In this document: piece by piece, positions 3 to 4,178 of the stretch
Layout: each line of letters opens with the position of its first letter
How positions within the stretch are numbered: the stretch's first letter is position 1
Assembly: GCA_028708105.1 (NCBI GenBank)
Contig: JAQVZR010000161.1
Coordinates: forward strand, 1-5,417
DNA from: Desulfoplanes sp.
GTDB taxonomy: Bacteria; Desulfobacterota; Desulfovibrionia; Desulfovibrionales; Desulfomicrobiaceae
Reading direction: 5' to 3'
Length of the DNA: 5,417 nt
Notes under the pieces: generated by a model
Database searches by the model: none
Seen by the model: the letters and a program-made list of their open reading frames with translations, nothing else
What the model was told of the DNA's origin: nothing
Position numbers and translations under genes: made by a program

Positions 3-554
3 TTTACATCCGTTCAATTGTCTGACTATCTGGGAAAATGGGTTTCCCTGTGTTTTTATCCCGGTGATTTCACCTTTGTCTGAGCCACGGAAATCTCGGC
101 GGTCGCCGAGAAGAATGCCGAATTTGCCAAGCTGGGCGTCCAGGTTCTGTCCATGAGTGTAGACAGCATGTTCGTGCACAAGATGTGGGTGGACCACGAA
201 CTGTCCAAAATGGTCACGGCCAAAACAGTGCCCTTTCCCATGCTCTCTGATGGTGGTGGTAATGTGGGCAAGGCCTATGGGGTGTATGATGAAACCGGTG
301 GCGTGGATATCCGGGGACGATTTCTCATTGACCCGGACGGTATTGTTCAGGCCATGGAAATTCTAACCCCGCCCGTGGGCCGGAACGTGAACGAAACCCT
401 GCGTCAGGTACAAGCCTTCCAGCTAGTGCGCGAGAGCAAAGGCACCCAGGCCACACCATCGGGCTGGAGACCTGGCAAACCCACATTGAAACCCAATCCG
501 GATCTTGTCGGCAAGGTATGGGAAGCATGGAAGGTTTCCCAGGCATTTGATTGA
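3..554 (+). CDS. Selenocysteine-containing peroxiredoxin (AhpC/Prx family), 5' partial
   Basis: Thiol/selenol peroxidase of the AhpC-TSA fold, expected to reduce hydrogen peroxide and organic hydroperoxides in the cytoplasm. The frame is open from base 3 to the stop at 552-554 except for one TGA at 81-83. The residues around it read FYPGDFTFV-U-ATEI, aligning with the family active site FYPxDFTFVCPTE, so TGA sits exactly at the peroxidatic cysteine. Further family signatures follow: LGVQVLSMSVDS, PFPMLSD, GVYDE, RGRFLIDPDG and the C-terminal GWRPGK. A SECIS-like hairpin lies just downstream. About 35 N-terminal residues are missing beyond the edge. The usual resolving cysteine in the VCPxxW motif is absent (ATPSGW), and the only visible Cys is 10 residues before the Sec, so this looks like a 1-Sec enzyme. 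An internal ATG at 153 is the likely start in a naive annotation but would remove the active site. Confidence is high for the family and good for Sec. Confidence 0.88.
81..83 (+). other. UGA codon read as selenocysteine
   Basis: In-frame TGA at the position of the peroxidatic cysteine of peroxiredoxins. The frame is conserved on both sides: FYPGDFTFV upstream and ATEISAV downstream. Together with the hairpin that follows, this indicates recoding rather than termination. Decoding would need SelB, tRNA-Sec (selC), SelA and SelD encoded elsewhere in the genome. Confidence 0.85.
95..110 (+). promoter_or_regulatory. Bacterial SECIS element
   Basis: CTCGGC (95-100) and GCCGAG (105-110) form a perfect 6-bp stem closing the tetraloop GGTC (101-104). 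The loop starts 18 nt after the end of the TGA, inside the coding region, as in bacterial SECIS elements bound by SelB. The GGUC loop resembles the conserved GGUCU apical loop of the E. coli fdhF SECIS. The hairpin codes for SAVAE, so it meets both RNA and protein constraints. Confidence 0.8.
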
Positions 555-586: not shown

Positions 587-632
587 AAAGGCTCCAACTC
601 TTGTCCACGGAAAAGAGTTGGAGCCTTTTCTT
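587..632 (+). terminator. Rho-independent terminator of the peroxiredoxin gene
   Basis: A perfect 16-bp inverted repeat, 587-602 against 613-628, surrounds a 10-nt loop and runs into a T-rich tail (TTTTCTT, 625-632). It lies 32 bases after the peroxiredoxin stop codon. The left arm begins with AAAG, so it may weakly terminate in the other direction as well. Confidence 0.9.
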
Positions 633-1617: not shown

Positions 1618-2406
1618 ATGGAGCAGACAACCCGCCTCATCACCCACATCGAAGCCATTGCCGCAGGTGATTACTCCAATGACATCATGGAACTGACCAA
1701 GGACAACCAACCCGAGAACATCCGCAGAATTGCCGAAGCCGTGGGCATGATGATGGTCCGCATTGAGGCCAGAGAAATGCGCCTGGAACAATTGTATGCA
1801 CAGATCAAACAAAACAGTCTGCGTACGGTGCAAAGCATTGCCGATGCCCTGGGCACCCGTGACTCATACACCCAGGGCCATGGCCAGCGTGTCGGTGATA
1901 TGGCCTCGCGTACGGCAATGCGGGCAGGCCTCTCCGACCAGGATGTGGAATCCATACGGTTGGCAGGCATCTTACACGATATCGGAAAAATCGGATTTAC
2001 AGACGATATTTTCAGCAACGAAGATACCCGGCCCAGCGATGCCATGCTGGAACAGATCCGCAAACATCCCACATGGGGCCACGATATTCTGACAAACCTC
2101 AATTTTCTGGGCAATGTTCCCGAACTCGTCTTCTGCCACCACGAACGGCTGGACGGCCAAGGCTATCCCCGAGGACTTAAAGGGGAGGAGATCCCCTTTG
2201 CGGCTCGGTTTATCAGCGTTGCCGATTGCTATGACGCCATGACAACCCAACGTATCTACCAGGACGCCATGCCCCAAAAAAAAGCCTGCACCATCCTCAA
2301 AAGACTGGCAGGGCCAAGCCTCGACCCCGATATCGTAACCATATTCATCACCGAACTGGAGAATCCATCCCAGCCAGAATTCCACCCTACGGAGAAAACC
2401 TTATGA
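1471..2406 (+). CDS. HAMP/HD-GYP domain protein, probable cyclic-di-GMP phosphodiesterase
   Basis: Predicted to hydrolyse the second messenger c-di-GMP. From Met50 (ATG 1618) a HAMP-like segment (about residues 50-113, with IAAGDYSND) leads by a helix into an HD-GYP domain. Metal and motif residues are all present: H137 in GHGQRV, H169-D170 in LHDIGKIG, H199 in KHPTWG, H223-H224, GYP at 231-233 and D252 in [10 protein letters not shown]. The residue four before H137 is Tyr, suggesting a two-metal rather than three-metal centre. Two starts are possible. ATG 1471 has AAGGG 7 bases upstream but adds 49 residues without recognisable character; ATG 1618 begins exactly at HAMP but has a weak ribosome site. 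A HAMP domain normally follows a membrane helix, and none is present in this frame, so the N-terminus may be damaged. The stop overlaps the next start (ATGA). Family confidence is very high; the start is uncertain. Confidence 0.87.
2403..2406 (+). other. ATGA stop/start overlap
   Basis: The HD-GYP stop TGA (2404-2406) and the AIM24 start ATG (2403-2405) share bases. With the Shine-Dalgarno GGAG inside the end of the upstream gene, this is the usual arrangement for translational coupling. Confidence 0.85.
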
Positions 2407-3191
2407 AAAGTCATGAAGTGGATTACAAGATCATTGGCCATGATATGCAGATCGTCGAGGTGGAGCTTGATCCCGGAGAAACGGTGGTGGCCGAAGCCGG
2501 AGCCATGAACTGGATGGAGGACGGCATCACCTTTGAAGCCAAGATGGGAGATGGCTCTGAAGCCGAAGGGGGATTTTTCGGCAAACTGATGGGCGCGGGC
2601 AAACGAGCCCTTAGCGGTGAATCCATATTTCTGACCCACTTTACCAACACCGGATCAGAAAAAACACACGTGGCCTTTGCTGCTCCCTATCCAGGACATG
2701 TCCTGCCCATCGACCTGAGTACCACCCAGGGGGAAGAACTTCTCTGCCAGAAAGACGCCTTCCTCTGTGCGGCCCTGGGAACCAAAATAGGCATCGCTTT
2801 TAACAAACGCCTTGGTGCCGGTTTTTTTGGTGGGGAGGGATTCATTCTCCAGCGACTGCAGGGTGACGGCATGGCCTTTGTTCATGCGGGGGGAACCGTG
2901 GTAAAAAAAGAACTCAAAGGCGAAACACTGCGCGTGGACACCGGATGTCTTGTAGCCTTCACCAAGGGAGTGGACTATGATATCCAGCGCGCCGGTTCCC
3001 TGAAATCCATGTTTTTCGGCGGCGAGGGCATGGTTCTGGCAACTCTGCAGGGAACCGGAACCGTCTATCTCCAAAGCCTGCCTTTCTCGCGCCTGGCCGA
3101 CCGGATCATTGCCCAGGCCCCCAAGACGGGGGGAAAACAAAAGGGCGAAGGCTCCGTCCTTGGGGGATTGTTTGACGGGGATAATAACTAG
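2403..3191 (+). CDS. AIM24 / TIGR00266 family protein
   Basis: A 262-residue member of the AIM24 (DUF124, TIGR00266) family of beta-rich, probably soluble proteins whose molecular role is not established in bacteria. Family marks seen are EAGAMNWM near residue 32, the glycine-rich [19 protein letters not shown] segment near 56-74, [16 protein letters not shown], and two copies of an FFGGEG-xxL-xxLQG-x-G unit in the second half, reflecting internal repetition of the beta fold. The length is typical. The start is well set: GGAG (2391-2394) lies 8 bases before the ATG, and the ATG overlaps the HD-GYP stop in ATGA, implying translational coupling. No signal peptide or membrane helix is present. 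A bidirectional terminator closes the operon. Function alongside HD-GYP is inferred only from position. Family assignment is confident; function is unknown. Confidence 0.85.
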
Positions 3192-3277: not shown

Positions 3278-3316
3278 AAAAAGCTGGGACAGTCCAATGG
3301 ACCATCCCAGCTTTTT
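3278..3316. terminator. Bidirectional rho-independent terminator between convergent genes
   Basis: AAAAAGCTGGGA (3278-3289) pairs perfectly with TCCCAGCTTTTT (3305-3316). After a two-by-two internal loop, GTCC (3292-3295) pairs with GGAC (3299-3302). The A-run on the left and T-run on the right make it usable from both strands, for the AIM24 operon (+) and the TatD-type gene (-). Confidence 0.88.
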
Positions 3317-3350: not shown

Positions 3351-4178
3351 TTACATCTGAAGGCCCCAAAATGCACAGGCCGTATCCCGGACAAGCTTTG
3401 TGTGCAGTTCACAGGAAATCTCCCAAGCATCATCTTGCGCAACAAATCTTTGATAGTCAGATGCAATTTCCAGGGCCGAATCACTGTTGATCATGATCCG
3501 GTCTTCCAGGTCAGGATATTTTTCGAGTATCCCGAGCAACATGGTTACCGTCATTTTGCCCTCCTGCATGGTCATACCCATCATCATCCCGGAATCCATA
3601 ACCATTTCCAGATTTTCACCGCATACATGGTCAATCACAATCCGCGGCTGCAAGGCGGGTACTTCCTTCAGCAGATCCAAAATCACAGCGGTTATCCGGG
3701 CCTTATCTGCACGTGGCGTGTGGATACCGATCCGTTTATCCAAGGGTAAAAACGAAGCCGCCCAAACAAGCTGTTCTTTAAGAATGGATACCTCCCTCGG
3801 ACTTCCTGTCTCCAACCCCAATTCACCGAGGCCCCGGCATAAAGGATTTGTCACATGCGTTGCCAGGCTGGACCACAAGAACGACTTGGCACCACCACGA
3901 GGAGAATTCTTCGGGGGCAGTGATCGGGGGTGCACCCCCACCAGATAGTACAGAGGGAAATCTTTTCTGGTCGTTGACTGGGCCAAAGCCCCCAACGCAT
4001 CAAAATAGGAAGGATATACATCCCAGGCATCCGGCTCATGCACATAGGACCATGAAATTCCGGCCCCAGCCCGTTCATAAAACCCAAAATCTTTAGGGGC
4101 TACATGATGCAGGATGTCCGCATGAAAATGCGAATCCACAAAACCAACCTTTTTTTCCCTCTCTACAGGATATTCCAT
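3351..4178 (-). CDS. TatD-family metal-dependent hydrolase
   Basis: A 275-residue TIM-barrel metal hydrolase of the TatD/amidohydrolase superfamily; family members act as DNases or phosphoesterases, and the substrate here cannot be told from sequence. Metal-ligand motifs appear in the expected order: D15-S-H17-F-H19 (HxH), GVHP at 81-84, GELGLE at 118-123 carrying the bridging Glu, H153 in GIHTPR, H184 in IDHV, and D233 in NSDSA. Length fits the family. The ATG start has a good ribosome site (AGGGGAAG a few bases upstream on this strand). A methionine-rich stretch (residues 198-213, seven Met) follows the IDHV motif. It ends at the shared terminator and is divergent from the CGGC-protein gene. 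It is more remote from classical TatD than E. coli TatD-type enzymes, so a TatD-like subfamily is likely. Confidence is good for the family, none for the substrate. Confidence 0.82.
   Translation of the reverse strand: MEYPVEREKKVGFVDSHFHADILHHVAPKDFGFYERAGAGISWSYVHEPDAWDVYPSYFDALGALAQSTTRKDFPLYYLVGVHPRSLPPKNSPRGGAKSFLWSSLATHVTNPLCRGLGELGLETGSPREVSILKEQLVWAASFLPLDKRIGIHTPRADKARITAVILDLLKEVPALQPRIVIDHVCGENLEMVMDSGMMMGMTMQEGKMTVTMLLGILEKYPDLEDRIMINSDSALEIASDYQRFVAQDDAWEISCELHTKLVRDTACAFWGLQM

Follow-up and report, generated by a model that had tools for sequence, protein, structure and literature searches.

A selenocysteine (Sec) peroxiredoxin from Eubacterium acidaminophilum was reportedly described by Sohling and colleagues in 2001, and such enzymes are said to have been known since that year. 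That protein, after which the NCBIfam model NF040737 (PrxU) is presumably named, has about 203 amino acids with Sec near residue 47, and so it lacks the N-terminal arm described below. In the later literature, a Sargasso Sea survey listed 43 Sec peroxiredoxin sequences (PMC1088965), a 2006 bacterial survey listed 12, several of them in Deltaproteobacteria (PMC1794560), they are listed for the genome of Desulfococcus multivorans, a sulfate reducer (PMC5109826), and the enzymes recur in recent reviews (PMC9312934, PMC13188914). The other close relatives are the typical 2-Cys peroxiredoxins (AhpC, Prx1-4 and plant BAS1) and the 1-Cys enzymes of the Prx6 type.

The locus studied here opens a stretch of 5,417 nucleotides from Desulfoplanes sp. 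(the window), which is an entire contig (G000:C269) of an assembly of 392 contigs that is 77.6% complete. The features of its first part are as follows.

3-554, plus strand: prxU, 3' part (183 codons and stop), matched by NF040737 and truncated at the 5' end where the contig begins
51-53, plus strand: codon of Cys17, the sole cysteine of the fragment, 10 residues ahead of Sec
81-83, plus strand: TGA predicted as Sec at the peroxidatic position, fragment residue 27, at the catalytic Cys in alignments to 2-Cys peroxiredoxins of solved structure
94-111, plus strand: SECIS-type hairpin supported by covariation, in which 94-101 pairs with 104-111 around a GT loop at 102-103
153-554, plus strand: truncated open reading frame of 133 amino acids without the active site, given by table-11 gene finding in place of the full gene
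453-455, plus strand: Thr codon where the C-terminal resolving cysteine would canonically be encoded (ATPSGW versus VCPAGW)
587-628, plus strand: inverted repeat with 20-nt arms, 95% complementary and 2 nt apart, followed by a T-rich stretch; the probable prxU terminator

With the internal TGA read as Sec, one frame runs through 183 codons from 3 to 554, interrupted only by that TGA and closed by a terminal TGA at 552-554. The fragment scored 359.4 bits against NF040737 (cut-off 270) with Sec scored as Cys, compared with 160 bits for the AhpC model TIGR03137, which is below its cut-off of 272. Pfam AhpC-TSA (PF00578) matched residues 2-117 with 114 bits, spanning the internal TGA, and Pfam 1-cysPrx_C matched residues 138-174 with 30.2 bits (cut-off 21.1). 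The first-pass annotation of this DNA had placed a peroxiredoxin with Sec at the peroxidatic position at 3-554. The reading frame was borne out, whereas the gene proved incomplete: it is already under way at window base 1, and because the contig starts there, the start codon and about 58 codons, as estimated from the protein of the same genus, lie outside the window. In an alignment with TGA as U, of the kind that had been suggested as a check, the codon fell on the catalytic Cys of 2-Cys peroxiredoxins whose structures are solved. The predicted substitution within an FYPxDFTFVCPTE motif held for the TGA site; the flanking residues differ, in that the window reads FVU-ATE rather than FVC-PTE. 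The expectation that automatic annotation would report only a truncated protein from base 153 was also correct, and plain gene calling yields just the 133-residue protein, which lacks the active site.

The window gene belongs to an enzyme type that is already published, named and covered by a curated NCBI model. Like PrxU, it exceeds the NF040737 cut-off and has Sec at the peroxidatic position, and it shares the TxxU motif given for the family in review (PMC13188914). The window's clade differs from PrxU in that Ala follows Sec, the canonical resolving Cys is missing and, in the relatives, an N-terminal arm carries a Cys. With typical 2-Cys enzymes the window shares the fold and the DFTFV-[C/U] active site, and in a Foldseek search the model of the same-genus protein found its best PDB match in 5zte (TM 0.91 by target length, 43% identity); the window departs from these enzymes in Sec for Cys, Thr at the resolving position and the sub-threshold TIGR03137 score. 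The Prx6 type resembles it in the 1-cysPrx_C match and in lacking the canonical C-terminal resolving Cys, whereas the matching Prx6-like NCBIfam models all fell below their cut-offs and the window's relatives carry an invariant N-terminal Cys. A 1-Cys enzyme has no resolving Cys anywhere; here the fragment, whose N terminus is missing, has only Cys17 besides Sec, and the arm Cys of its relatives is invariant.

The TGA codon was compared across related genomes. NF040737 gave 15 matches over its cut-off in 14 of the 22 genomes of the family, one being the window itself, and no such match in the other 8. All 14 other homologues, from 13 other family genomes, have TGA at the same codon, including the one in G017, the sole further genome of this genus. 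A sense codon at the site, which in close homologues would have pointed to a sequencing error, was found in none of them. An ordinary Cys-type AhpC gene carrying a nonsense mutation or a sequencing error could be suspected from the fragmented state of the assembly (392 contigs, 77.6% complete), and from that alone. It is refuted by the 14 conserved TGA codons, which, with the same-genus genome among them, exclude a sequencing error, and it is further opposed by the covarying hairpin, the presence of sel genes and the TIGR03137 score of 160 against 272, so that we consider it extremely improbable. In the wider phylum, 129 of 395 sampled genomes had an over-cut-off PrxU match, and a count by hand gave 133 of the 142 matches with one or more in-frame TGA codons; the G330 match is among these 133 and has Cys at the Sec site itself. 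The earlier statement that Sec peroxiredoxins are known was correct, and its description of them as uncommon needs adjusting in light of the phylum count; defence against peroxide by means of selenium is probably widespread among these anaerobes. One family genome that has no intact copy shows a pair of neighbouring short PrxU matches at G012:C3:129315-129574, of which one contains four TGA codons; this is possibly a decayed prxU.

A genetic code in which TGA stands for an ordinary amino acid such as tryptophan would account for the Trp found at the Sec site in 101 of 120 listed database homologues (P0004-P0121). This residue is presumably the product of gene callers using a code in which TGA is Trp, and public metagenome proteins would in the same way hide many Sec peroxiredoxins. 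Against such a code, prxU and other window genes end at TGA, sel genes are present, a SECIS-type hairpin follows the codon, and Trp is incapable of peroxidatic chemistry; we give this explanation almost no credence.

The hairpin stem begins 10 bases past the TGA. In the SECIS element of E. coli, a conserved loop G and U are contacted by SelB. We aligned 104 distinct 36-base stretches, all from Sec loci of the window type, and found 98.6% of 832 cells paired. When the partners were slid by 1-3 columns, pairing fell to 38-71%. Changes on both sides were seen in 126 cells, compared with a shuffled mean of 47 and with none of 500 shuffles as high, and the loop-closing pair was A-U in 59 sequences and G-C in 45. 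By a weaker measure, four pairs had changed on both sides, a number reached in 41 of 500 shuffles. A seven-pair count gave 765 of 777 cells paired in 111 distinct window-type sequences and 141 of 161 in 23 Sec sequences of the U-P-T-E type, compared with 58 of 133 in 19 distinct Cys-bearing sequences, none of which was fully paired; this control comprised close Cys forms and ordinary AhpC genes, whose amino acids also differ. The folding energy was unremarkable (z -1.13). No Rfam SECIS model reached its gathering threshold on the window and four relatives, and a search of window positions 20-220 with E up to 10 returned nothing relevant. Judged from the alignments, the hairpin at 94-111 is a covarying one of the bacterial SECIS kind that Cys forms do not retain.

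The genome was searched for the Sec machinery, the check proposed in the first-pass annotation. The search found selA (612 bits, cut-off 268) and selD (G000:C157:1753-2670; 330 bits, cut-off 125), the latter read with one in-frame TGA, as were all 18 selD matches above the cut-off in family genomes; the genome's own selD probably encodes a selenoprotein itself. selB was recovered as two pieces at contig ends, covering profile positions 1-148 (edge of C239) and 142-580 (edge of C261), neither over the cut-off alone. Since selA lies beside the selB piece on C239, the arrangement seen in G017, we infer that the pieces are a single gene split by the assembly. For the remaining gene, selC (tRNA-Sec), the best hit in the assembly, which is 77.6% complete, had 42 bits and so stayed below the cut-off of 47. 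A tRNA-Sec passed the cut-off in 20 of the 22 family genomes with 78-87 bits, including that of the same genus, the exceptions being the window's genome and G021. In G017 (locus L054, about 8400-11000), prxU lies divergently beside selD and a gene which we take to be YedF-like. The selD contig of the window's own genome has the YedF-like gene and no prxU, and a linkage of prxU to selD is not claimed.

Taken together, the model score, the aligned TGA, its retention in all 14 homologues, the hairpin and the presence of selA, selD and selB pieces make it very probable that 3-554 encodes the selenocysteine peroxiredoxin PrxU, its in-frame UGA being predicted to be decoded as Sec. From the sequence, insertion of Sec at this codon is predicted to involve SelB and tRNA-Sec, and the product is likely a thiol-dependent peroxide reductase.

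Two points had been overlooked: the window gene lacks the canonical resolving cysteine, and its relatives have a conserved N-terminal cysteine, in a part of the gene that lies outside the window. In typical 2-Cys relatives of solved structure the resolving cysteine lies within VCPAGW-like motifs, where the window reads ATPSGW; the residue there is T or A in each of the 15 family sequences. The only Cys or Sec residues of the same-genus protein are C9, C75 and U85, and C9 belongs to a C-x-R-P motif early in an arm that is some 40 residues long. Among 116 window-type loci, this Cys was present in all 112 alignable arms, with C and P invariant and R at 98%, while conservation of the linker at alignment columns 38-58 was only 16-38%. 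The four unaligned arms were those of the window and L101, both cut at contig ends, that of L139, in another frame, and that of L166, ahead of an in-frame TAG. L166 (G207:C4) is an arm-type prxU with this TAG between the arm and the active site in addition to the Sec TGA; it could be a broken copy, or the TAG could be read as pyrrolysine. Structure prediction for the same-genus protein (pLDDT 85, pTM 0.80) gave a confident peroxiredoxin core and an arm predicted to be disordered (residues 1-35, pLDDT <50); the model is a monomer and is therefore silent on reach between subunits. An earlier prediction with the window fragment as first alignment row (pLDDT 39) was set aside.

Because the usual C-terminal resolving Cys is replaced by Thr, or by Ala in some relatives, we propose that the arm Cys may take its place. 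In the proposed cycle, the selenolate would attack peroxide to give a selenenic acid, which would be captured by the invariant arm cysteine as a selenenylsulfide, and a thioredoxin-like reductant would then open this bond. The arm cysteine of this cycle is lost from the window and present in the same-genus gene. Cys17 was considered as a substitute resolving residue and ruled out, because it also occurs in proteins that keep the canonical Cys (L192, L196, L208-L210). In the accessible portions of the open-access literature on N-terminal or relocated resolving cysteines, PrxU and Sec peroxiredoxins, the arm was not described.

The distribution of these cysteines was examined in a tree that joined 132 proteins from loci with 12 from the database, 144 in all, after 26 near-identical entries of 170 had been left out. 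One set of 80 loci consisted of the best of 580 found with two peptide patterns taken from the window's clade, and that clade is therefore over-represented among the 80. Six of 40 loci had no motif match and stayed outside the tree and the counts (four cysteine-free paralogues, one of the PCGW type and one without an N terminus). The window type formed a branch of 108 proteins with support 99, containing both Sec and Cys forms, and the arm Cys was present in all 11 Cys forms of this branch. Across the tree, 103 proteins had the arm without the canonical Cys, 3 had both, 18 had the canonical Cys without the arm, 16 had neither, and in 4 the arm was unreadable. The fewest changes required were 2 for the arm, 6 for the canonical Cys and 11 for Sec/Cys. 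Gain of the arm and loss of the canonical Cys formed only 1-2 independent pairs, so few that a statistical test has no power. Outside the window-type branch, the tail cysteine is found as GKVC, as PCGW or at the canonical place; L182-L189 and L200, L204-L206, all without the canonical resolving Cys, have their tail cysteine in a GKVC or PCGW motif. The 120 listed database proteins include 16 Cys-form homologues, of which 13 have the arm Cys at the N terminus and the other 3 start at the core Met, these starts being gene-caller predictions with unchecked start codons. Ten of the 16 are in the tree, and P0016 equals L172; those outside are P0011, P0022 and P0029, whose predicted sequences lack the arm, and P0027 and P0117, which have it.

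These distributions bear on whether the arm Cys acts in catalysis at all. In a 1-Sec peroxiredoxin, an external thiol would reduce the selenenic acid directly, and the N-terminal Cys would serve cross-linking, regulation or docking. Four paralogous loci from one genus group (L191, L193, L198, L199), second PrxU-like genes whose matched part contains Sec and lacks Cys, fit such a mechanism and speak against the arm step, as does the position of the arm itself outside the window; three of the four genomes with a cysteine-free paralogue also have an arm-type prxU. The 16 of 144 tree proteins with neither the arm nor the canonical Cys point the same way, several of them having a GKVC or PCGW cysteine. 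The arm step is also opposed by the 3 proteins with both cysteines and by the 3 listed Cys forms that start at the core Met, and the scarcity of independent phylogenetic pairs is, with the four paralogues, the main argument against it. What a 1-Sec mechanism explains poorly is an arm Cys kept in 112 of 112 arms beside a drifting linker, and kept also in 13 of the 16 listed Cys forms, which have no selenium chemistry to account for it. We regard the 1-Sec mechanism as plausible and yet somewhat improbable. That the arm cysteine took over resolution of the oxidised Sec or Cys is nearly an even call, falling just short of probable. More broadly, and at somewhat less than an even chance, the window may belong to a widespread clade of Sec peroxiredoxins whose resolving role has passed from the C-terminal tail to an invariant Cys on a flexible N-terminal arm. 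Other branches of the family have no such Cys at all, keep the canonical one, or have a tail Cys at another place (GKVC, PCGW), and the family would then form a natural series of re-wired peroxiredoxin cycles with interchanging Sec and Cys forms. If the arm Cys does resolve, the family would show a peroxiredoxin relocating half of its catalytic pair, and natural Sec, Cys, arm, tail-cysteine and cysteine-free versions are directly comparable.

The rest of the window contains the following features.

1174-1431: small protein, distantly SorB cytochrome c-like, below cut-off
1618-2406: HD-domain protein
2403-3191: AIM24/TIGR00266 protein
3278-3316: inverted repeat with 19-nt arms and 1 nt between, just past the AIM24 gene; a probable terminator
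3351-4178, minus strand: unmatched protein of 275 amino acids
4350-4748: CGGC-domain protein

Between prxU and the next gene, a MITE-like element of about 325 bases lies at 653-977, with imperfect terminal inverted repeats of 36 nt that are 86% complementary. Related copies were found elsewhere in the genome on contigs C52 (86% identity), C309 (78%) and C55 (79%), together with shorter pieces.
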